Below, one piece after another: positions 6,159 through 57,060 of a stretch of 64,000 bases of DNA. Origin of the DNA: Dentipellis sp. KUC8613 (Eukaryota > Basidiomycota > Agaricomycetes > Russulales > Hericiaceae); the NCBI GenBank assembly GCA_002286715.1, contig NSJX01000001.1, positions 2,781,929 to 2,845,928 on the forward strand, written 5' to 3'. The notes under the pieces are model-generated. The model saw only the letters and a program-made list of their open reading frames with translations, did not search any database and was not told the DNA's origin. Position 1 is the stretch's first letter, and every line of letters starts with the position of its first letter. The translations under genes were made by a program, and so were the position numbers.

Positions 6159-7426
<1,268 letters not shown>

Positions 7427-8391
7427 TTCGTGGGGTATGTATTGGGGGGTAAAGGGACGGTGAATGGGAACGAACAGCAAGGGACATTCTGCCTTTTATA
7501 CGGGGTGGGAAGTCTCCCAAGCGACGCGACACGGAAAGAGCAGTCGAGCCAGATTTGCGATAACGGAGCGCGCGACGCTTACACATGCAAGAAAAACAGG
7601 TCTTGTATGTTCTGCCGAACAGATGGTGAGTAAGTGGGTCGGAGGATGTGGCTCGTTCTCGAAGTCTCGGGAGCCCGATTCGGGGATTGTCAACGAATGC
7701 CCATGGCTACGTGGAAACGACGTTACCTCGCACCAGTACATGTGAGTCTTTCTTGCGGGTTGTATGTGAATTATATAGGCACTTCAAGTGGGCTAGAGGA
7801 TAGGAAAAGGCCCTTAAGCTCAACGGAACGAAGATGACATGGTCGTCGACCTTCGTCGACAAGTCAAAATATGTGTGATCGCCCGTCGGCTCGGCGACGA
7901 AGAGTGCCCGAAACCGATCAGTCAAGCGCTCACGTACGTATGTAGATCTGATCTGAAGAGATCTGAGGACCAGATTTACTCAGATTTACCGTTCTCTGGT
8001 GTCTTCGTATTATCTTCGCTAAAATGATACGTAGTGAGCCGGATCCCACAGATGCAGTCAATATCTCAGTATTTGTTTTTGAAAATCACGGAGACCTCGA
8101 AGACTGGATAATTCTTTGTTATCGAATGCTCGGGCGTGCGGCCTGGCGAGCAAAAGATAATCCAGGAATTTCCGGGTATTTTCTTCCCGAGTCGGGGAAC
8201 TCGGCATATATCAAGCTTACCCATCCAACTATCTTCTATGTACGTACGATGGCGTATTGACTACGCCATCCCGGACGCATCAGTTGTGCAGTGCAATAAG
8301 GTGTTCACCGTCAAATGGACTTCTGTTGTAGACTAGACGGCGCCTGCGTTGCACTCACATCGTAGTCATTTAAAATGCAGCAATGTACATG
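7427..8391. other. intergenic region upstream of OYE paralogue 1
   Basis: This holds the promoter of the OYE gene at 6159-7426. Short open frames on both strands have no domain, splice or composition support. I see nothing else in it. Confidence 0.5.
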
Positions 8392-8461
8392 GCATTAATG
8401 GGGTAGTGGTAACCTGGGTCGTTGCCATCGACCCGCCGGGGGTTCGATTCCCCCTTAATGC
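8392..8461 (+). tRNA. tRNA-Gly(GCC), copy 2
   Basis: The 70-nt cloverleaf is identical to the copy at 13217-13286. The acceptor stem GCATTAA/TTAATGC is fully paired, the anticodon loop TTGCCAT gives GCC, and the T arm is GGGGG TTCGATT CCCCC. No intron and no encoded CCA. It sits about 620 bp beyond the stop of OYE paralogue 2 and antisense to it, the same relative arrangement as the OYE tail and tRNA at the window start. A T-rich tract (TTTTTTTTCG) follows about 46 bp downstream. Confidence 0.95.
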
Positions 8462-9083
8462 ACAGCAGATCTGGAAACATATGAGTTTTTTTGGTTTTGT
8501 TGGAGTCATTTTTTTTCGTTGGGACTGTGCGCCTACGGTTGGTGGTGGTGACCAAGTATCTCTTGCAGCTTTTCAACTAATTGCATTTTGTTTCAGAACT
8601 CAGTGTACACTTCTCCATCTCTGAACCAGAGGCGTCGTGCATCTATATCTGGCCGGAATATCAAGCACTTCGTAAAGTAAGTGGAATTCAAATGCGATAT
8701 ACGTCCAAACCTAGCGAGCATGATGCCGTTCAACGTCGCATTTAACCTCGCATCCCACATGTCGAAGCCCATGCTTCAGTATAGGCTTAGCCAGTCTCTT
8801 GATCGCCCCAAGCCAAACGTCAGTCGGTGTACACTCTTGGGTGCCTCGGATCATCCTGACGCTGAGCGACGGCAGAAGATTCATAGCATACTCCAGCGAG
8901 CCCTCAAGAGTGGTTCATCTGGCAGGACGGCTGATTCGACAAGCACCTCTATCGAACACGCCTGATGTATAAGATGGAAAACTAGCATTGATCCCGAGTA
9001 GTGATTGAAAATAACGAAGGCCCGTGATCCTGTTCTATCAGAGGAAATCTATAGCTAATCGAGCAACATAAAGGAGCCTAAAC
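8462..9083. other. intergenic region
   Basis: It lies between tRNA-Gly copy 2 and the 3' end of OYE paralogue 2. A 94-codon open frame at 8681-8965 (+) shows no recognisable domain. T-rich tracts just after the tRNA could serve Pol III termination. No supported gene. Confidence 0.5.
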
Positions 9084-10370
9084 CTATGCTGCAACGGCAG
9101 GATAGTCAATGTAGCCCTCCACAGCCTGAGGGCCGGGTGTGTAGAACGTCTTCCTATCATACTTCCTCAGGGGATAGTCGTGTTGCAAGCGACGCGGCAG
9201 GTCGGGCTGGAAGTCAAACGCATGAGTTTTTGTCCCCCACGCGAAGTCGGGAGAAGTGCTCACGTTAGAAATGAAGTAGCGACCGAACCCAACCAGGACA
9301 TCCCGCTCATCTGCCGCACGCATGGCCTCCTCACGACTGAAGCCGCCAGCGACGATGAACGGCTTCGGCTTCCAGATCTGTCGGAGCGGCTCGTTTGACT
9401 CGACAGACACCTTCTGAAACTCCTCGCCGTTGATGCGGGGCTCGACGACATGCAGGTACGCGAAGTCGGGATACGCGTCGTGGACGCGCCTCACGAATTC
9501 GGTGAAGGTCGGCATTGGGTCGTCCATGCGCTTGGTCACTGTTATAATGTGAGCCAACTTCGCCCCTGGGGTATGCAATCGTGACTGACCTTGCCAGGGA
9601 CTCCAGGGGCTGACACGCAGGCCCGTCTTCTTCTGCCCGACCGCTGCGACGACAGCCTCGACGACCTCCAACCCGAAGCGGATCCGATTCTCAACCGAAC
9701 CGCCGTACTCATCCGTCCGATTGTTGATCGACGGCTGCGAGAACTGGTCGATGAGGTACCCATGCGCACCATGTACCTCGACGCCATCGAAACCAGCGCC
9801 CTCGACCGCATTCTTGGCGGCAGTCGCGTAGAGCTGCACGTACTTCTTTATCTCGGGGATGGTAAGCGGGCGCGGGTCGGGGCGCACGTCACCCCACTCC
9901 GGGCGCTGGTCCCCAATGTTGACGCTGCCGGAGCTGACATAGGGATGTCCGCCCTCCCTGGCGAGCACCTCGGGGTCGGCGAGGCGGCCGATGGCCCATA
10001 GCTGGAGGTAGATGAAGGACCCTTTCGCATGGACGGCGTCGACGATCTGGACGAGAGCAGATGTCAGAAAAATAAACGCGGTGAGACGTGGTTTTCGAGT
10101 ACCCACCTTTTTCCACTGTGATATCTGCGTCGGGGTCCAGATACCAGGGACGTTGGGGAATCCGCCGGCTTCGGCAGCAATGAAGGTTGCCTCGGTGATC
10201 AGGAGCGTCCCGGGAACGCTGGCGCGCTGGGTGTAGTATTCAAGAGCCACGTCTTGCGGCTCGTGTGCGTCGTTGGCTCTATGCCGCGTCAGGGGCGCCA
10301 TGACGATGCGGTTCTGGAGGGTGATATCACCGACTTGAAGAGGCTGGAAGAGTTTGGAGGAGGCAGACAT
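9084..10370 (-). CDS. OYE-family enoate reductase, paralogue 2
   Basis: Start MSASSKLFQPLQVGDITLQN and end [12 protein letters not shown] match the family. The same three introns as in paralogue 1 are present (10047-10106, 9539-9589, 9207-9263). HGAHGYLIDQFSQPSINNR supplies the H-x-x-H substrate-binding motif, and KPKPFIVAGGFSREEA lies in the FMN-binding part. The spliced protein is about 372 residues, an FMN-dependent C=C reductase. Oddly, all three introns (60, 51 and 57 nt) are multiples of three without stops, so the unspliced frame is open for 428 codons. Conserved splice sites and paralogue comparison show these segments are introns. Confidence 0.93.
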   Translation of the reverse strand: MSASSKLFQPLQVGDITLQNRIVMAPLTRHRANDAHEPQDVALEYYTQRASVPGTLLITEATFIAAEAGGFPNVPGIWTPTQISQWKKVGTRKPRLTAFIFLTSALVQIVDAVHAKGSFIYLQLWAIGRLADPEVLAREGGHPYVSSGSVNIGDQRPEWGDVRPDPRPLTIPEIKKYVQLYATAAKNAVEGAGFDGVEVHGAHGYLIDQFSQPSINNRTDEYGGSVENRIRFGLEVVEAVVAAVGQKKTGLRVSPWSPWQGQSRLHTPGAKLAHIITVTKRMDDPMPTFTEFVRRVHDAYPDFAYLHVVEPRINGEEFQKVSVESNEPLRQIWKPKPFIVAGGFSREEAMRAADERDVLVGFGRYFISNVSTSPDFAWGTKTHAFDFQPDLPRRLQHDYPLRKYDRKTFYTPGPQAVEGYIDYPAVAA

Positions 10371-13216: not shown

Positions 13217-13286
13217 GCATTAATGGGGTAGTGGTAACCTGGGTCGTTGCCATCGACCCGCCGGGGGTTCGATTCCCCCTTAATGC
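13217..13286 (+). tRNA. tRNA-Gly(GCC), copy 3
   Basis: Identical 70-nt cloverleaf to the copy at 8392-8461, with anticodon GCC and a fully paired acceptor stem. It lies between OYE paralogue 3 (upstream side) and the 3' end of the first SDR gene. No intron and no encoded CCA. Confidence 0.95.
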
Positions 13287-13413
13287 ACTCAGCTTATTGA
13301 AGCTTCCTTTTTGTAGCCCTTAATGCCCATCATATTGAAGCACCCGACGTACACAACAACTTTCATGTGCGCAGCGACATCACACCCATCCTTCACAACC
13401 TCGCCCAGCACCT

Positions 13414-39934: not shown

Positions 39935-42142
39935 CGTGGCGGTGGTTTCCGGCGGATCGATCGTAGTATGAGATGGTGGAGGATAGCCGTCGATGCAGCT
40001 CGGGACTGCCCGCCACCCTTATGTATCTGTCTTCCACGAGGCCGACTGCGGCATGCGTATGTGGGCAGGAGAAGAAGCCGCACGAGGCACATTGCTTCTC
40101 GCTCGTTTAAGGAGGTGACAACCTGGGGTCAGCCTGGCGTCGGTGCCTGTGAAGATAAGTGAGCTCAACGTCTCCAATTGACCTCCGAAACCTAGTTTGT
40201 AGTCGTGGCTGATATGCTCTCATGAAAGATTGAGAAACAGTCAGAATTGAAAGATGCTCGGAGTCGGAGAACGCATACCACACTTTCCCGGTTGAGAAAG
40301 AGACCGGCAAGGAGCTAGTTCGGACGAAACGTAAATGTGTTCGATAAACTCACTGCATGGCAGCGTCTAAGTGCCCCTCCACAGATGAAATTCCGGGTGT
40401 GAAGGAGAACATTCGAGGCCATGATAAGAGAAGAGGGAAAACTCACTCTGTCCCAGCTCGTTCGAGACGCATAAGGTAAATATCGTGCGAGGGCTTGAGG
40501 CCGGAGTTGTTGAGAGGTAAGTAGTGGCAACCAATTGAGCCCATCTTCTATGCACAGCTCATTCCGAGAACGACATACATAAGCGCCGGCGACCCGGATC
40601 GGTCCGGCAACACTAATATAACTTCGCTCGGCTTCGTTCATGTACATCAGAAAAACGCCCCGAGAATTGCGTGGGCTTGCACGCCGATCGCGATGGGGCA
40701 GAACCCGATACGAGCGACTCGCGAGGGCTCGCGAGGGCTACAAGGGCTCGCAAGCGTCACAATCCGGTAAATCGCTATGGCCTATATTGGAAGGCGGCGA
40801 CGAGGCCCTTGTGGCCTACTCGCAACGGCCTCGCATCGACCTTCTGACCTGGCAGATAGTACATATTCGAGTACAGTAATGTCTTTGGCTACCAGGTTAT
40901 TATTTCACTTTAATTCGAAATTGTATTGAAATTTTCGACGGTCATTGAATTAGTTAGAAAAAGATCTTTTCATTTTGACTACGTTTACATGTCTAGTACA
41001 AGGACCCCAAACAGTAGATACCATGTCCATGCCGCCAAAGGGACGTCTTCAATAAGGCGAGGTAAGCTTCGAAAATGATTAACAACAGGATGGTTACTCA
41101 CTGACCCTCAAGCGATCAGCTACGCACCAGGTAACGTGCATGTTCCCCTATAGCCCAATCGTGATGTTGACCGAAAGCTCCCGAGGAATGACTACATGTA
41201 AGAAGAGAAACTGTCGTGCGGTGAGCGACCAGTGCGAAGGAAGAAACGGAACACGTACGAGCGCAGTACTAGGTACCGCGATGAGCTGTCATGGGTGGCA
41301 CGCTCCTCGCATCGTAAATGACGGGCCCTTGATCAATGCGCATGTGTAAGCTTTAATACTTCAAGAGGACAAGCAAGCGACTGCACATACCATTCACTCT
41401 GGGGGGCTTGCGAGCCATGTTCAACGGCAGCGAAAGGGCTAAATCAAGAAATGGTCAGGTTATAAAAATCAGAGATCGTTAGCAGGATGCGATAGGTAGC
41501 TGTGGTGGTAAGACATGGCGTGAAGTCAATGTTCGTCAGGGCTCTTGAGAGAAATTTTTGAAGCCCAGGCGTCGGGGTTCAAACTGTATGGGTTGCTGCT
41601 GTACGCGTGCGTCGCCATCGCCGAAACGCGTCAAGTCGGCCTTGGGAAATGGAGCTACGAGAGCATCGCGAGTGAATGCAAGTTATGCCCAAGCTCGCGC
41701 TCCACACACAATGCCATCGCAAGATGATGGAAGCTTGTCGGGCTGATACAACCTCGCGCATTGTTGCAGCGGCTGTGCGAGGATGTTGCAAGCACATCGC
41801 GAGCTCTTGCGAGGGGTTCGGGATCTCCCGCCGGCTTGCAACTGACGCAAGCGGTACAATCTGGTACAATCTGCGGTGGGCTTTTGTGATGTACTGGCAA
41901 CACTAGTCTTCTACTCAGTGGTCCGGGGTCTATATCAGATGGCTATCGCTGGTCCTTGCGCTGTCTATACGAAGCTCCGATGTCTTATGCCTCGATATCC
42001 AGCAGAAGAAGAAGAAAGTAGTCACGGATACCGTACGGCTGCTGCCACATCTGACGCGGAGCTCTGAGAATGAGAATGAGATGTGGCAACGGAGTCTCGA
42101 TTGACTCTAGCATAAGTAGGCCCTTAGCTACATCATCACTAA
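39935..42142. other. gene-poor stretch
   Basis: About 2.2 kb with no supported gene. Two patches rich in GCGAG/CTCGC words occur near 40705-40760 and 41765-41850, and a duplicated GGTACAATCTG lies near 41850-41870. Frames at 40315-40647 (-), 41140-41349 (+) and 41579-41906 (both strands) show no domain. It ends at the MITE insertion. Confidence 0.5.
42140..42142. repeat. target-site duplication, left copy (TAA)
   Basis: The three bases TAA flank the element here and again at 42928-42930. A 3-bp TAA/TTA duplication is characteristic of PIF/Harbinger elements. Confidence 0.75.
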
Positions 42143-42188
42143 GGGTCCGTTCGGTAACCGCACCGAAATATAATGTAGCGGTACATAT
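42143..42188 (+). repeat. MITE left terminal inverted repeat
   Basis: 46 bp, a perfect inverted match to 42882-42927. It begins GGGTCCGTTCGG and ends GCGGTACATAT. Confidence 0.9.
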
Positions 42189-42881
42189 TCCCATATATGG
42201 CAACTCTACCGAAAGATTATGTGTGGGAAATTTCCGACAGAAATTTCCGTATGTGCAGTGTACGGAAGCACCAGTGCCTCCAAAATGTGTAGCCTCGGCA
42301 CTGAGCTCCTCTTCCTTCAAGAACAGCCTATAACACATTTATTCCTCATCCCAATGCCTTCTTGGCTACATCTAAAATCATGTTAAATATGAATCTTTCT
42401 ACCCTTCCATTTTTCGTGAGATCCATTGAAGTGATCAAGAGGGAGTTGAATAAAAGTGCCCGAAGCTCAGAATATTGTCTTCGGTGTAGGCATAACATGG
42501 AGAAGTTCTGCGCCACAGCGGAGTTTTGCATGTGCTCCCGGCACGCCGGCATTGGACCTGTCCTTACCAACGGCGCATGCCTGCCGTTGCGGGCTTTTCT
42601 GCGGAGATCGTTTCGGCAGCCTTCGGCGAGGTGCCAGATTGTGGCACTTTCGATAATTTCATTATCCTGCTTCACATACCACATGTATCGCCCCAAAACA
42701 AGGTCGAGCCAAGTGAGACAACAGCAGTATATAATTTCCATAATTTTTGGCCCACTAGCTGCGTTTGTGCTGCTTCAATATTGCATTTACCGTGAAAGCA
42801 AGATTATGTGGTGGCTGTGCGATCCCGCGACAGACCACAACATTATCTGAATGCCAAACTGAAGTCATGTGATAATGTACG

Positions 42882-42927
42882 ATATGTACCGCTACATTAT
42901 ATTTCGGTGCGGTTACCGAACGGACCC
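42882..42927 (-). repeat. MITE right terminal inverted repeat
   Basis: 46 bp, a perfect inverted match to 42143-42188, followed directly by the right TAA duplication at 42928-42930. Confidence 0.9.
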
Positions 42928-42930
42928 TAA

Positions 42931-43403
42931 GCAACTCTCGCCGCTTCTGAGATCAGCGCTCAGCATCAATGTTGACGAAGTTCGCTGTGAAGACGATCGG
43001 AGAACCATGACACGACTTGCCTGTGCTGTATTCGCGCGCTGAACTGCAGTGGTTTGCTTGTCTTGTGAGATATCGTGCAATACCCGGCTCGTCTCATGAT
43101 CAGGGACTAATGCGACGGGGATAAGTTAATCTCTTAGAGTATATCGATGGCTTGCACACTACTTACGTTGTTCCCTTGATGCCCAGGTCATTCGAGATAT
43201 AAGGGGCTGCCAGTGGGCGCCCGACTATCCCTGAAGGTCTCTGCGAATACCGATGAGACATTCAGTTACGGTCTGCTTACTCCACCGCAGAGGTCGCGAT
43301 CCTCAACCGAGATAATAGCGTAGACGGATTCTGACAGATTTTTCTGCGGCTTCTGCAGTCCTCCATAGGGGACTTCAGCGGTCGGTGTCTTCTTCGAGGC
43401 GAT
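42931..43403. other. flank and distal promoter of peptide-precursor gene 1
   Basis: No gene supported. Around 43180-43250 it shares an imperfect block (TGCCCAGG ... TGCCAGTGGGC ... GGTCTC) with 44928-44990 upstream of precursor gene 2, showing that the promoter was duplicated with the gene. Confidence 0.55.
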
Positions 43404-43500
43404 CCCATCATCTCCATAACAGCGCTCCCGGATCACCACAGGCTGAAAGCTACGACCCTTGCATAGCCTACGCCAGTCGACAGGTATAAGTAACAGCGGC
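43404..43500 (+). promoter_or_regulatory. proximal promoter of precursor gene 1
   Basis: It contains CCCATCATCTCCATA (43404-43418), shared with the upstream regions of genes 2 and 3 as CCATCATTTCCATA, and a TATA-like GGTATAAGTAACAGCGGC at 43483-43500, about 50 bp before the ATG. The same pair recurs in the same order upstream of all three genes. Confidence 0.6.
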
Positions 43501-43550: not shown

Positions 43551-43898
43551 ATGCGATTCTTCGCCACACTCTTATCCCTTTCTGCTGCCGTCGTCGCTGC
43601 TCAAGCCATGCCTAACCAACTGGCGGATCGCAACGGTGAGGCTCGGAATTGTCGACATTGATATACATCTGCTTACTCGGAGCATGTTATTACCATTGCA
43701 GGTGCCGTCGACCGTGGTGTCGACGCTGTGGGGGGTCTTTTTGGCGGGCACAGTCACGACACTGAAGGTGCAAAGCGGGACATCCCATGGATTGGACACA
43801 GTCACCCGCCGCGCGACGATCCTTCTTGGATCGGACATAGTCACCTGCCACGCGAGGACTCTTCTTGGATTGGACATAGTCATTTACCGAGGGAGTGA
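43551..43898 (+). CDS. secreted Kex2-type repeat precursor 1 (WIGHSH repeats)
   Basis: Two exons (43551-43635, 43702-43898) give about 93 residues. MRFFATLLSLSAAVVAAQA is a signal peptide. The intron falls after 28 codons in phase 1, as in the genes at 45350 and 47117. The mature part has an early degenerate unit (FGGHSH), then KR before DIPWIGHSH, PPR before DDPSWIGHSH, and LPR before EDSSWIGHSH; it ends LPRE. Kex2 cleaves after KR and, less well, PR, so three related nonapeptide-like products are predicted. There is no Cys framework and no CaaX box, so it is neither a knottin nor a basidiomycete mating pheromone. Likely a secreted signalling, metal-binding or RiPP-like precursor (inference). 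Confidence 0.72.
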
Positions 43899-45174
43899 AG
43901 CGGGGCGGCGCTGTCACTGGAGGAGGAGGACGCACCTGTCATCCGAAATAAAGGGTCTCTGCGATCACAACCTGCACTTTACAGCTATGTGCAAAAGTAA
44001 AAAATAGTAGGAGCACGTTGACACAACCGACCTGCTCCTGTGAGCTAAGCATGCCATATGCAGACTTCGTCATCCCGGCACCGATGTTCGACGACCCGGT
44101 GTGCTCTGTCCTATGGGGACAATGCCATTGGGCGCCGGCACCGTCACGGCGCGAGCCGCAGGCTTCGGCACGAGGTCAGACCTCGGGCACTTGCTGCGTA
44201 TACCTATACACTTCTGAGGTGTGCAGAAGATCGGTGTGTTGATGCCCCTGTGTGCACTCGTTGAGGCGCCCGAATGACATTGAGGTCGACGAGTTCGAAG
44301 GTAATAGGCCGAGGCACAGATATAGCCCAGCAGCCCCCTGAACTAGCCTTGTCGGTGCAGTCAAAGTGGACGTGGGCACATGCTAGCGGCTGCAGCGATG
44401 AAAAGATGAGCTTGAGCGACTGCAGGGAGCTACGGGGGCAGGGACCATTCAACTGAAAAGATCATATGACTCAGGGTTAGGTTCAATGATCAGCCAATAC
44501 CGGCCAGGGACGGACAGTACGATGGAAGGCGCATGAACTTGAATGAGGCCGCGGAGACGGTTTTCAGAGGCAGAGGCTTAGCATCCCCGCTTTCTCTTCC
44601 TTTTCCTTTTGGGCATGTACACATGAGCGCCGTGGAATTTGACGTTATTCAAAATGTACAGAAATTTGAGTAAAGCGTGAATACAATTTAAATATTCGCC
44701 GCGACTTACATTTTCGCGGAGACTCGCCTTTCAGATCTCAGTGCTACAACCCTGCTCTCCATTTACTGTATGTTAGTAGAAATGACAGCCTGTTACGCCG
44801 AAACCACTCGCGCGGCACTACGGCGTAGGTGAGTTTCTTTTGATGGAAGATATGTGTTGTGCTGATTATTATATCCGTTAGGCTTCTCCCATAGCAGAAG
44901 ACGAATACACGCTACACTGTTCTCTAGTGCCCAGGCGATTTGAGCTACCAAGTGCTTGCCAGTGGGCACCTTGATGCCCCTGAGGTCTCCAGTGAAGACG
45001 AGGGGGGCAATAAGAATACCGCCGGGCTTTGATTCTACCGGGGAAGTCGTCAGTACCAAATCCAGTACTCATGGAACGTACGGACTCTAATGGAGATTGC
45101 TCCTGTCCCTGCACTTTCCCACAGGGATGTCCAGTGTTCGCAATACTTATCATCCTGGGCCGTTCTAGCTGTGC
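43899..45174. other. intergenic region between precursor genes 1 and 2
   Basis: It contains the 3' flank of gene 1 and the distal promoter of gene 2, including the duplicated block at 44928-44990. Minus-strand frames at 44793-45186 overlap this block. AT-rich, T/A-biased sequence lies near 44570-44720. No supported gene. Confidence 0.5.
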
Positions 45175-45299
45175 CATCATTTCCATAGAATGCGTTGCTC
45201 GTTGGGAATCGCGACTATTGAATGCAGCGTCGTCTCAGCAGCCGCATGACCCAGACTGAGAACAGCATATACGAACCGATAGGTATAAGTAGCGGCAGC
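45175..45299 (+). promoter_or_regulatory. proximal promoter of precursor gene 2
   Basis: It contains CCATCATTTCCATA (45175-45188) and GGTATAAGTAGCGGCAGC (45282-45299), matching the elements ahead of genes 1 and 3. The ATG at 45350 is about 50 bp past the TATA-like element. Confidence 0.6.
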
Positions 45300-45349
45300 A
45301 TTGATCAGCGAATGAGCAACTCACCTCTAGGCATACTGAATCCTCAGCA

Positions 45350-45658
45350 ATGCGCTTCCCCGTCACCCTCTTATCTATGGCTGCCATCGTTGTCGCCTCT
45401 CACGCCATGCCTGCCCGACTGGGGGGTCACAACGGTGAGACACGATATCACTCATGTTAATGTGAGTCTACTGACCCGCAGTACCCTGTGACCATATCAG
45501 ATATCGAGCGTACTCCCTCCCTTGAGAGCATGAAGCGGGATGACCCTACCATCGGTCACACTCACGGGACCGTGAGGCGCGACGACCCTGTCATTGGTCA
45601 CACTCACGGTACTGAGAAAAGAGACGACCCCGTCATCGGATATACTCACCCGAAGTGA
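45350..45658 (+). CDS. secreted Kex2-type repeat precursor 2 (DDPxIGHTH repeats)
   Basis: Two exons (45350-45434, 45501-45658) give about 80 residues. The signal peptide is MRFPVTLLSMAAIVVASHA and exon 1 is again 28 codons plus one base. Three units follow dibasic sites: KR-DDPTIGHTHGTV, RR-DDPVIGHTHGTE, KR-DDPVIGYTHPK. The third unit has Tyr in place of the first His and lacks a following dibasic site, so it is the C-terminal product. The acceptor at 45500 was chosen because the alternative at 45481 runs into a stop. Same family as 43551 and 47117. Function unknown. Confidence 0.72.
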
Positions 45659-45729
45659 AGCGGCTGCGCAACAATCATAAGAGGATTCGACAGTAAGTTC
45701 TGTTCAGATAAGATGAGACTTCTACAGAC

Positions 45730-46483
45730 TTACCTCGCATTTGAATATTCTGCCAGCATGTATAACGAGCGCTGTCTATGAAGCGCTATATCTGTGGTGG
45801 GAAGAACGGCTAGATGACTGTGGCCGTTCGAATGAATGTCGTGATGTATAAACCCACATGGGTATTGTAAATGTAACTCTCTTATGCGGTGAATCATATA
45901 TCCCCATGCCAGCGGCGTGTTATTGATATTGAGGACTAAGTACACAACCACGTGGCGTGCTGAGCTGCACGGTGATCAGTCAAATCTTATTTGACATATA
46001 GAATTCAGTCGACCACGCACCCCATAAATTGACTCCTCCGAGATGCCTTCCATTGCTTGATGAAGTGAGCCGTACCGTAGCGCCAGTCTTCTAATAGCGG
46101 ACCATCCTTATCGAGTGCCTTCAGCTGGTCCTCGCGTGTGCATGATGCTAGATCATTATGCCGTCGGTACCCGACAGCGGAAACGACGTAATCACGGGGT
46201 TCACACATATCATCTGACCAAAAACGCGAAAGCATGAGCATATGGCAACGGTCCAGCACAACCTTGCCTTACCTAGAACACTAGTAATCCTCTCCATCGC
46301 GCTGGGGATCAGAGACAATCGCTTGTCTAGATTAGCGATGAGTGGTAGCTCTAGATTAACGATGCAGCCGACTCGTGCCGGCAATGTCTTAGCAACGTCG
46401 ACTAGAATGACTCCGGTGAGCATCGGTGAAACTGTGATCTGCCCTGTACGACTCGCAGCAGCTGATGCTTTGAACGTGAGCAT
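45730..46483 (-). CDS. hypothetical protein, antisense neighbour of precursor 2
   Basis: Three frames on the minus strand join in phase: ATG 46483 (MLTFKASAAASRTGQITVSP) to about 46273, then about 46213-46018 (DDMCEPRDYVVSAVGYRRHN ... RRSQFMG), then about 45960-45730. Donors gtaagg, gtgcgt and gtaagt and matching acceptors are present. No known domain is recognised and the C-terminus is unresolved; the last donor would lead toward the 3' end of precursor gene 2. A smaller antisense frame lies in the same relative place after precursor gene 3 (47693-47929). It may be a real gene or a decayed duplicate. Confidence 0.3.
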
Positions 46484-46922
46484 AGCGTTATGTAGCTTAC
46501 CGGATGAACTGCGCGGAAAGGTGGGTTGCGTGGGTATCCAATTTTTTATTTACACCGGTGCGACGAAAGTCAAAGCAGATTTGCGCACTGCAGAAAATTT
46601 CCCTCGCGAGGCAGACGGTCGCATTATTGAAGGCTTTCCTATGGAGAAAAGTAAGGCTAAGAATATCAGGAAGGGATGAAAATAGACCACGGATTTGATC
46701 TTCAACTTCGCGTCACTGCAGTGTCTACGGGCCTGAACTTGTAACCCTGCGAGCGAAGCTGGTCGCAGTAATAGCTAGTTGAGGATACTCGAGGTTCACA
46801 TGGGCCCTCGTTTCTGCCGGCTTCAGGAGTCTCGGCGCAACGAACGCAATCCTCGCAGCACGTACTAGACTCGTGCTGCCCCTGTAATTCCCACAGCACA
46901 CCTCCCATCCCGTTCGTGGGTT
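46484..46922. other. intergenic region before precursor gene 3
   Basis: The plus-strand frame 46242-46679 and the minus-strand frame 46702-47058 show no domain support. It probably holds promoter sequence. Confidence 0.45.
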
Positions 46923-47068
46923 CCATCATTTCCATACCAGCGTACTCCACAATCCATGAACTCGATGCAACTTGGGGGATTTGGGCCCTGACACATGACA
47001 TTGAGCTCGGCAGTATCAGCCAAACGTCAGCAACGCTCCTGCGAGTCGATGGATACAAGTAGCGGCGG
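46923..47068 (+). promoter_or_regulatory. proximal promoter of precursor gene 3
   Basis: CCATCATTTCCATA lies at 46923-46936 and a weaker TATA-like GGATACAAGTAGCGGCGG at 47051-47068, the same order and spacing class as in genes 1 and 2. The ATG is at 47117. Confidence 0.6.
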
Positions 47069-47116
47069 TTTTAAGAAGCAGATGAGACACTCATCCAGGC
47101 AGCCCCATCCTCTGCA

Positions 47117-47584
47117 ATGCGTTTTTCTTCCACACTCTTATATCTCGCTGCTGTCATCGTAGCTTCGCAGGCCATGCCTGTTCAGCTAGCGGGTCGCAAC
47201 GGTGAGCCTCGAAATGGTTGTCGTGAAGATGCGGCTACTTACCCAATTGTTATCCACCGTCGTGGTTGTGCTCACATTGCAGATGGTGTTCTTGCTGAGC
47301 GCGGTTACGTCGCTGAGGACGTGACTCAGGACGGTCCCATCATTGGGCATACTCACGTCCGAGCGGACGGCGTGAAGAGGGATGGCCCCATCATCGGGCA
47401 TACCCATGGCACGGACGAAGGGGATGTCAAGCGGGATGGTCCTATCATTGGTCACACCCATGTCCGAGCGGACGACCTGAAGAGGGATGGCCCTATTATT
47501 GTGCATACTCACGGCACAGAAGACGAGAAGCGGGACGGCCCCATCATCGGGCATACCCACAGCTCTGAGCGGGCGGAGGCTTGA
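47117..47584 (+). CDS. secreted Kex2-type repeat precursor 3 (DGPIIGHTH x5)
   Basis: The signal peptide is MRFSSTLLYLAAVIVASQA. By comparison with genes 1 and 2, an intron at 47202-47282 (81 nt, GT..AG) lies after codon 28; removing it gives 128 residues. The intron is a multiple of three without stops, so the unspliced frame is also open (155 residues). Five copies of DGPIIGHTH follow; copies 2-5 sit directly after KR, copy 1 is preceded by TQ, and copy 4 reads IIVHTH. Spacers alternate between VRAD(G/D) and GT(D)E types, suggesting doubling of a two-repeat unit. The end is HSSERAEA. Kex2 processing would release several near-identical peptides. No Cys in the spliced mature part and no prenylation box. 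Receptor or target unknown. Confidence 0.78.
   Translation: MRFSSTLLYLAAVIVASQAMPVQLAGRNGEPRNGCREDAATYPIVIHRRGCAHIADGVLAERGYVAEDVTQDGPIIGHTHVRADGVKRDGPIIGHTHGTDEGDVKRDGPIIGHTHVRADDLKRDGPIIVHTHGTEDEKRDGPIIGHTHSSERAEA
47300..47570 (+). repeat. five tandem coding repeats in precursor gene 3
   Basis: Units of about 42-54 bp encode DGPIIGHTH plus an acidic spacer and KR. DNA copies differ at third positions, so selection on the peptide, not only recent duplication, maintains similarity. Confidence 0.85.
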
Positions 47585-48525: not shown

Positions 48526-48818
48526 ATGCAATCCTTCAGCGTTCTTCTGTCACTGATTACGATGGCCGTCTATCCAGCTCGGGAGGCACGCTGGTGAGTT
48601 CTGCCGTTGCCAACCGAAAAGACTCAACCTCTTACCGAGGCCCTCGACATATCACTCCAGGTATTTCTCCTCAGCGTAACGAAACACAAGCCAAGCCTCA
48701 CGAATTTTCGGGAGCCGAGGCTGAGTCAGAGTGGGGTTATCGACGAGACGATGGTGACCGCTCCGACCTAGGTGAGGTCACCTCGGACGGTATCAAGGTT
48801 GTGCTCAGCAGCGATTAG
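48526..48818 (+). other. possible decayed member of the secreted-precursor family
   Basis: MQSFSVLLSLITMAVYPARE at 48526 looks like a short signal peptide and meets a gtgagt donor at 48594. A downstream open frame (to TAG at 48818) contains YRRDDGDRSDLGEV with a dibasic RR. No acceptor I tried joins the two in frame, so it may be a pseudogene or have a different structure. Confidence 0.25.
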
Positions 48819-49403
48819 AGCTGAATGTCGACACATGAGTGAAAGAGTCGACGATGTTGAAGGTATCGGACACACGCACACTGTCAAATCCGTATCCGCG
48901 TAACGTTTTGCTTTGCAGGCACAACAATCTATGCTGCCAAATCCAAATCATGTTGACTGTAGAGACCGGAAGGCTGGAAGCTCCTGATTACGATACTGAG
49001 ATATGAAAAGACTGTACAACATACATCAGTGTCAACCATCAGGTCAATAGGAATGCCGAAGCGACCCTCTTTCTTGCGAAGCCAAGACTGTCGTGTCAAA
49101 GATCGAAAAGAGACAATTCGCGCAAAACGATTGAGTGATCGTGAAGGAAGTTTGCACGGCTGAAGGCCACAACCTGTTCAGCACGGTAGTCAAGCCCGAC
49201 TTTCTCAAAACGATGTGAAACGAGAACCATACCATCTATCGGAATTCTGACCCCATCGCAAGCAATGCAAGATGAACACGTTTCCTACGCAACTTGCGGA
49301 GTGAGCAGGTATAAAGTTGCATGCAAGCGAGAAGATGGAAATCAGCCTACCTCGAAAGCATCCCAAACCAAGTACACCCTCGCCGCTGCATCTCATTGCA
49401 ACC
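48819..49403. other. intergenic region
   Basis: No supported gene. It contains the promoter of the small secreted-protein gene at 49404. A T-A-T-A-A-A element (GGTATAAAG) lies near 49310. Confidence 0.5.
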
Positions 49404-49715
49404 ATGCGTTTCTTGGGCACCATCTTGGCACTCGCCGGACTCGTTGTCGCTTCGCAAGCTAGGCTCAGTAGAACTGCGAACCATCCAGGTGAGCGTTACA
49501 TTCTTGACCTGTGACTCAATACGGTCGGTCTTACTTTTGCCGCAGCAGGAACACCTCGTCATCATGCCGTCGACTTAGAAGCTCGCGAGGAGTTGACGGG
49601 AGAGCATAACGCGTTCGAGTGGTTTGATGCTCGTCGGCGTTCCAGGTACATTTTCTTCATGTGGGGGAGAGTTTGTTGCTCAATAAAGACTTACAGAACC
49701 CCAACGACTTTGTGA
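49404..49715 (+). CDS. small secreted protein, exon-1 relative of the precursors
   Basis: Signal peptide MRFLGTILALAGLVVASQA. Exon 1 is 28 codons plus one base and ends at a gtgagc donor, exactly as in the three Kex2-type precursors. Exon 2 (from about 49547) encodes HHAVDLEAREELTGEHNAFE then WFDARRRS; exon 3 ends RTPTTL with TGA at 49713-49715. About 67 residues. It lacks G-H-x-H repeats but keeps a basic ARRRSR site near its end. It is probably an ancestral or diverged member of the same secreted family. Function unknown. Confidence 0.5.
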
Positions 49716-56465: not shown

Positions 56466-56611
56466 TCCAGAGGTGGCTTAGGTATCGAAACTTGTATACT
56501 GGAGAGCGGCTAGAAGGAAATCCTGAGACAACCTGTTGCAGGCGCTCTGCATGAACGGGATGACGGGCATCCCGGTCCGGACCGATTGCCATAAAACGAG
56601 ACAGCATCCAT

Positions 56612-56685
56612 GGCCGACTAGCTCAGCTGGTTAGAGCGTCGTGCTAATAACGCGAAGGTCTTGGGTTCGATCCCCACGTTGGCCA
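56612..56685 (+). tRNA. tRNA-Ile(AAT)
   Basis: A 74-nt cloverleaf including the discriminator A: acceptor GGCCGAC/GTTGGCC, D stem GCTC/GAGC, anticodon stem TCGTG/CGCGA with loop CTAATAA (anticodon AAT, read as IAU after editing), variable AGGTC, T loop TTCGATC. No intron and no encoded CCA. A T-rich tract (TGTTTGTTTTC) follows within about 15 bp. Confidence 0.95.
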
Positions 56686-57060
56686 TGGCTGTTTGTTTTC
56701 GAACCTATTCATTTTTTGCTAAGCTAGACATCCAAAGAGACCCCTCCCACGGGTTCATAGCGATATATCCAGTCCAAATCTAGTTCACACAAGTATGTGA
56801 CTCTTTTTTTATGAATTAGATGCAAGTCTGCACCGAGCAACAGAGAAGGTCCAATTGATACGTCTAGTACAACTCTTGAAGTCATCCACGCAAAAACGTT
56901 CGTGGCAGTGGTCGTCGCGGTGTCATGCTTACCGCGAAGGAGAAAAGAAGAGAACGCTCAAGTGCCGCGAAGGTCGAACAGGACCAACCCGAACATGAAT
57001 GACGCACAGGTCGCGCAACCTATTCATACAGACATCACATCTGTCCGATACACACAACAT
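56686..57060. other. intergenic region
   Basis: 3' flank of the membrane-protein gene and the tRNA-Ile terminator (T-rich, with TTTTTTT near 56803). No gene. Confidence 0.5.

Follow-up and report, generated by a model that had tools for sequence, protein, structure and literature searches.

The window analysed here (64,000 nucleotides of the genome of Dentipellis sp. KUC8613, a wood-rotting tooth fungus of the Basidiomycota, order Russulales, family Hericiaceae; contig C1, positions 2781929-2845928, from an assembly of 34.1 Mb) contains three neighbouring genes on the + strand (gene 1, 43551-43898; gene 2, 45350-45658; gene 3, 47117-47584; positions counted within the window), which probably represent a small family of tandemly arranged genes for Kex2-processed repeat proteins (KEPs). 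Arguments for a Kex2-type precursor family are the layout of the precursors, their tandem paralogy, the selection acting on the repeated core and the existence of a similarly built relative in a sister species. The precursor layout as such is known in fungi, while the core, with clear in-frame selection in one gene, would constitute a new KEP core family. An earlier reading of this DNA from its letters alone (the sequence-only reading) had drawn the analogy to KEPs, which appears to fit the signal-peptide-like exon, the pro-region and the repeats at basic sites.

The three genes are built alike. Exon 1 measures 85 nt in each of them (28 codons plus 1 nt, i.e. phase 1) and is directly followed by GTGAG, in line with the earlier claim of a phase-1 intron after codon 28, and with introns of 66 nt (gene 1), 66 nt (gene 2) and 81 nt (gene 3) the predicted proteins are 93, 80 and 128 amino acids long. 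The annotated Dentipellis sp. KUC8613 proteins DENSPDRAFT_832002 (P0001) and 832004 (P0002) are identical to the models of gene 1 and gene 2, respectively, and therefore imply the same splices. All three genes were found on one strand at the coordinates given by the earlier reading. The frame of gene 3 stays open without splicing (155 amino acids), and its intron is therefore taken over from the paralogues. A signal peptide of 19 residues is plausible in all three genes, judged by eye from a basic start, a hydrophobic stretch and a small-residue end (ASQA, AAQA or ASHA) at about residue 19. Between the genes, the aligned exon 1 is 71-75% identical and the introns 58-70%, and no Pfam family matched the three precursors at E <= 10. 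The gene models are as follows.

43551..43635, + strand: gene 1 exon 1, start and putative ~19-residue signal peptide (protein equals P0001)
43636..43701, + strand: gene 1 intron, 66 nt, GTGAG...CAG (splice implied by P0001)
43702..43898, + strand: gene 1 exon 2, with the pro-region, the three WIGHSH cores and the stop codon
45350..45434, + strand: gene 2 exon 1, putative signal peptide, 28 codons plus 1 nt (P0002 identical)
45435..45500, + strand: gene 2 intron, 66 nt (splice implied by P0002)
45501..45658, + strand: gene 2 exon 2, three cores
47117..47201, + strand: gene 3 exon 1, putative signal peptide, 28 codons plus 1 nt
47202..47282, + strand: gene 3 putative intron, 81 nt, frame open if unspliced
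47283..47584, + strand: gene 3 exon 2, five DGPII[GV]HTH cores and four KR sites

Eleven full cores (three in gene 1, three in gene 2 and five in gene 3) share the form D-x-P-x-I-G-H-[ST]-H and lie at basic cleavage sites, namely one KR and three PR in gene 1, KR, RR and KR in gene 2, and four KR in gene 3, of which the first core is preceded by TQ. The repeat units at KR, RR and PR sites that had been noticed before were thus found again, with KR and RR in genes 2 and 3 and the PR sites in gene 1. The cores, and one degenerate extra copy, are located as follows.

43731..43757, + strand: gene 1 pro-region, additional degenerate copy GGLFGGHSH
43779..43805, + strand: gene 1 core 1, DIPWIGHSH, KR before
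43815..43844, + strand: gene 1 core 2, DDPSWIGHSH, PR before
43854..43883, + strand: gene 1 core 3, EDSSWIGHSH, PR before
45539-45565, + strand: gene 2 core DDPTIGHTH, KR before
45581-45607, + strand: gene 2 core DDPVIGHTH, RR before
45623-45649, + strand: gene 2 core DDPVIGYTH, KR before
47330, 47381, 47435, 47486 and 47534 (starts), + strand: gene 3 DGPII[GV]HTH cores, 27 nt each

In-frame selection on the core is clear in gene 3, with a fainter signal in the other two genes. When the five cores of gene 3 are compared, 0, 1 and 9 of 9 columns vary at codon positions 1, 2 and 3, respectively, and the ten pairs of cores differ by 48 silent versus 4 replacement changes (the pairs are non-independent, which makes such counts descriptive). 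In the two shifted frames the pattern is reversed (0 silent versus 46 replacement and 1 versus 45), and amino-acid changes were more numerous in every one of 2000 column shuffles. Moreover, the silent divergence at shared residues within gene 3 (47/86) is about as high as that between the genes (28/51, 49/82 and 57/97), so the identical peptide is held by selection and does not owe its identity to recent copying. The proportion of silent differences (pS) in exon 1 also exceeds that of replacement differences (pN) in the pairs with gene 3 (pS 0.50 and 0.56 versus pN 0.16 and 0.20). As a separate observation, the spacers of gene 3 units 1 and 3 (47357-47380 and 47462-47485) show 0 silent changes in 8 codons, compared to 6 in 9 for the cores (Fisher p 0.009, post hoc), so that the history of the spacers seems to differ from that of the cores.

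It is exceedingly improbable that the repeats arose by chance or that the array is non-coding tandem DNA with a fortuitously open frame. No protein corresponding to gene 3 turned up in the database searched, and two neighbouring stretches look decayed, as might be expected in that case, but the frame-specific selection, the annotated models and the cross-species relative all speak against it, as do simulations in which a four-residue word had to occur at least 3 times with basic sites between. None of 30 simulated windows with the same base-step frequencies contained any match to this rule; the real window matched at genes 1 and 3 only, gene 2 being too short for it.

The cores are conserved over nearly their whole length. 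In the 11 copies D occurs 10 times, P 10, I 11, G 10, the first H 10, S or T 11 and the final H 11 times, and with three copies of the relative in D. fragilis included the counts (out of 14) become 13 for D, P, I and G, 12 for the first H and 14 for the final H. The H-x-H end, which the sequence-only reading had called invariant, is present in 10 of the 11 and in 12 of the 14 copies; the claim thus holds for the final histidine, whereas the first is replaced by Y (GYTH, gene 2) or R (GRGH, D. fragilis), in each case in the last copy of its precursor. The accompanying contrast of a fixed H-x-H with a drifting N-terminal half is a little too strong, since D, P, I and G reach about the same degree of conservation as the histidines. 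The same numbers bear on the possibility that the peptides bind copper or zinc via the H-x-H end, as extracellular chelators or metal carriers, which is considered quite unlikely. G-H-[ST]-H together with an acidic N-terminus would make a plausible ligand set, and the persistence of the final histidine in all copies, and of the first in most, agrees with it. However, the first histidine is replaced in two copies, and the conserved D, P, I and G are unneeded for metal binding alone.

A relative of the KEP-type genes is found in D. fragilis (EVG20_g9955, P0003), with a signal exon (a signal-peptide-like start by eye), KR sites, two DDPVIGHTH cores and a third core that has diverged, so that conservation of both the repeats and the KR sites in a related species is in fact observed. 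A profile of three sequences, run against 5.8 billion protein sequences, retrieved genes 1 and 2 and EVG20_g9955 (3 of 427 candidates at E <= 10), while gene 3 alone as protein query gave no match at E <= 1 among 45 candidates, the database paralogues genes 1 and 2 included. Neither was gene 3 itself found as an annotated protein (eligible lengths 0.55-1.75 times its own), from which it follows that small precursors can be lacking from annotation. Within the genome, searches at E <= 10 with the gene 3 protein gave no place beyond genes 1-3, and with the D. fragilis relative no place outside the array, in both cases among the best candidates scored. The pattern IGHxH occurs 38 times genome-wide (17 times for a reversed control pattern), of which 10 inside the array; of the 28 outside it, 20 were read in frame by eye, none of them lying in a KR-flanked series.

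Two further stretches downstream of gene 3 may belong to the family.

48865..48879, + strand: orphan IGHTH in an open stretch lacking KR sites, with a signal-like start upstream at 48526
49404..49488, + strand: probable fourth paralogue exon 1, MRF-type signal peptide, phase-1 donor after codon 28
49549..49715, + strand: probable fourth paralogue exon 2, without GHxH repeats, as given by one of three models with two exons (exon 2 starting at 49546, 49549 or 49579)

The orphan IGHTH is probably a relic of a further unit, and no splice model (up to 3 introns of 45-110 nt, with the splice patterns tried) joined it to the start at 48526. The gene at 49404 is a probable fourth paralogue without repeats, as suggested by its exon 1, which gave the weakest match of the D. 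fragilis relative (54% over 28 amino acids, E 0.43), the sole one reported outside genes 1-3. This protein match is weak, and at the DNA level neither 48526 nor 49404 could be linked to genes 1-3, so the paralogy of the gene at 49404 is likely and not proven. A sub-threshold Pfam match of this gene (E 0.18) was disregarded, and at its weak matches on contigs C22 and C120 no similar gene was seen by eye.

Several observations weigh against a KEP family held by selection. The cores of gene 2 (10 silent versus 6 replacement differences) and of gene 1 (10 versus 8, leaving out the extra S codon of two copies) carry a weaker signal than those of gene 3, and the silent divergence within these genes is lower (7/19 in gene 1, 8/23 in gene 2), so that the cores may have expanded later in these two; in exon 1, silent changes between genes 1 and 2 hardly exceed replacements (pS 0.30 versus pN 0.25). 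In addition, gene 1 has a single dibasic site, the remaining ones being PR, no dibasic site precedes the first core of gene 3, and the neighbouring stretches 48526-48903 and 49404-49715 look decayed. Finally, the protein database searches reported no homologue outside Dentipellis, though such proteomes are covered at least in part, as an old-yellow-enzyme frame from the window, used as control query, retrieved many Agaricomycetes, among them Hericium and other Russulales (its best match came from Dentipellis sp. KUC8613). Because gene 3 itself was not found in the protein database, this absence is a weak argument, and a restriction of the family to the genus Dentipellis is to be seen as provisional.

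The secretion, cutting and trimming that we infer for these precursors would run as follows. Each gene would encode a secreted precursor from which the signal peptide would be cleaved at about residue 19, after which the Golgi protease Kex2 would cut after KR and RR and, in gene 1, probably also after the single arginines of PPR and LPR. Kex2 reportedly cuts after Pro-Arg in a yeast killer toxin precursor, for which the literature searched gave no confirmation. A Kex1-type carboxypeptidase would then trim the basic ends, and linear peptides of ~10-16 residues would be released outside the cell, several per precursor, mostly starting with D-x-P and carrying I-G-H-[ST]-H (predicted masses are, e.g., 1614.811 for DGPIIGHTHVRADDL, 1276.568 for DDPVIGHTHGTE and 1359.621 for DDPSWIGHSHLP). 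Tandem duplication followed by divergence would have led to three related ligands, i.e. WIGHSH, DDPVIGHTH and DGPIIGHTH. The genome has a Kex2 relative on contig C128, with one match to the P-domain family P_proprotein above the cut-off and, in neighbouring open frames, subtilase-type stretches and a hydrophobic stretch (by eye).

Published work on KEPs (cited here from parts of the papers) is compatible with this scheme. Peptides from agaricomycete KEPs were identified both in culture fluid and in fruiting bodies, and the products seen in a yeast host agree with cleavage at single arginines (PMC9769878), so that cutting at the PR sites of gene 1 is plausible. As to the role of the peptides, signalling outside the cell or an interaction with other organisms is most likely, though this is proposed with low confidence. 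In Coprinopsis cinerea knock-outs of six KEP genes gave no phenotype, and the authors suggest a role in biotic interaction (PMC9769878). A more far-reaching reading, in which the three tandem precursors provide a genus-specific extracellular peptide language, with distinct variants of one histidine-ended core as diverged ligands and not redundant copies, and with selection maintaining the core because a dedicated receptor or the binding of metal requires it, is unlikely, though conceivable.

The sequence-only reading had also named alpha-factor-like precursors as an analogy. The idea that the peptides are alpha-factor-like mating or hyphal-fusion pheromones draws on the repeat precursor, the Kex2 sites and the short secreted peptide, which the array would have in common with ascomycete alpha-factor precursors, on a Ste13-type gene in the genome (a two-piece DPPIV_N match) and on the report of Basidiomycota KEPs with alpha-type signatures (PMC6339444). 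However, the X-A or X-P dipeptide on which Ste13 would act was found at 0 of the 10 cleavage sites having two following residues, so the analogy does not hold at this point. The cores also lack cysteines and the PCW end described in the cited part of PMC6339444 (W being present in the gene 1 cores), where it is moreover stated that sexual pheromones of Basidiomycota are not Kex-cut repeats; pheromones of this kind are therefore very unlikely.

The second analogy, that to dikaritin-type precursors of ribosomally synthesised and post-translationally modified peptides (RiPPs), in which Kex2 frees the cores and UstYa-type oxidases cyclise them, fared no better. Dikaritins (ustiloxin-type) have Kex2-flanked repeats, and a signal peptide if the putative one is real, in common with the array, the genome holds at least 16 UstYa matches, and the W and H side chains of the gene 1 cores might be crosslinked. 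Yet none of the 16 UstYa (DUF3328) matches lies on contig C1 (the counts being lower bounds), and a tyrosine core is lacking, tyrosine occurring in only 1 of the 11 cores. No known RiPP-modifying family was found in 10 large open frames of the window, three of which gave no family at all (smaller or intron-rich genes could escape such a scan), and in one survey only 103 of 1680 Basidiomycota KEPs were near a UstYa gene (PMC7329392, cited in part). A dikaritin-type array is accordingly regarded as highly improbable. Of the frames scanned, those nearest to the array belong to a dynamin-like gene and a ubiquitin-conjugating enzyme; a flavin mononucleotide (FMN) oxidoreductase is present in the window at more than 33 kb from the array, as part of old-yellow-enzyme-type frames on the - strand within 6251-10370 (9084-10370 matches Oxidored_FMN, 6251-7069 is similar by eye). 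Elsewhere in the genome, 10 of the 16 UstYa matches form five pairs less than 6 kb apart (on contigs C86, C89, C111, C126 and C161), which are possibly real dikaritin-type clusters.

Returning to KEPs, the array is alike in (putative) signal peptide, pro-region, near-identical short repeats between Kex2 sites and (predicted) linear peptides to those described in PMC6339444, PMC7329392 and PMC9769878. Several near-identical repeats are present in each precursor (3, 3 and 5 cores in genes 1, 2 and 3, and three in P0003), 3 KR or RR sites in gene 2 and 4 KR sites in gene 3 lie between repeats, and the organism has a Kex2-type protease. What differs is that most sites in gene 1 are PR and not dibasic, by which it would fall below the four-fragment rule of PMC6339444, and that the array is a tandem one of diverged paralogues. 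Most KEP types are confined to one genus and most basidiomycete KEPs have no nearby UstYa gene, according to the cited part of PMC7329392. Neither GHTH nor GHSH is present in the main text of any of the three papers (figures and supplements lying outside the comparison), and a literature search with longer core strings and the two locus tags found no paper. The Rep1 repellent precursor of Ustilago maydis, going by a partial description, is also a basidiomycete secreted protein cut into repeated peptides; these are 37 amino acids long and control hyphal wall properties, compared to 10-16 amino acids for the predicted peptides of the array.

A pattern scan placed a TATA-type promoter element upstream of each gene.

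43483..43500, + strand: TATA-type promoter element of gene 1 (GGTATAAGTAACAGCGGC)
45282..45299, + strand: TATA-type promoter element of gene 2
47052..47069, + strand: TATA-type promoter element of gene 3, 3 mismatches

These are the only 3 matches in the window (up to 3 mismatches), compared to a mean of 0.18 in 100 shuffles, none of which had 3, a figure that flatters the pattern, since genes 1 and 2 had served to derive it. Scanning 43400-43500 for bacterial-type promoters and terminators gave no match, which is uninformative for a fungus. The same eight bases, TGAAGCGG, begin with the stop codons of genes 1 and 2 (43896-43903 and 45656-45663) and resemble the VKR-coding DNA of gene 3, in a different frame. 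Upstream of gene 1, ending at ~620 bp from it, an element of 793 bp occupies 42139-42931, its 50-nt terminal inverted repeats being 98% complementary; it has at least 8 near-full-length copies in the genome (88-100% identity, the window copy included) and looks like a small DNA transposon. A subtelomeric reading of the array was dropped, as the final 1354 bases of the contig contain no telomere repeat. Further away in the window, ARAGORN found three tRNA-Gly(GCC) genes within ~13 kb (260-330, 8392-8463 and 13217-13288) and a tRNA-Ile at 56611-56686; two of these four tRNAs were listed at the Rfam gathering threshold.

KEPs occur widely among fungi, for the most part with functions yet to be established (PMC9769878). 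The array in Dentipellis offers a compact test case for them, with three diverged paralogues and their predicted peptides, core selection that is clear in one of these and a relative in the sister species. It also indicates that KEP surveys based on proteomes can miss such genes, since gene 3 was not found annotated and the dibasic sites of gene 1 are too few to pass one published filter.

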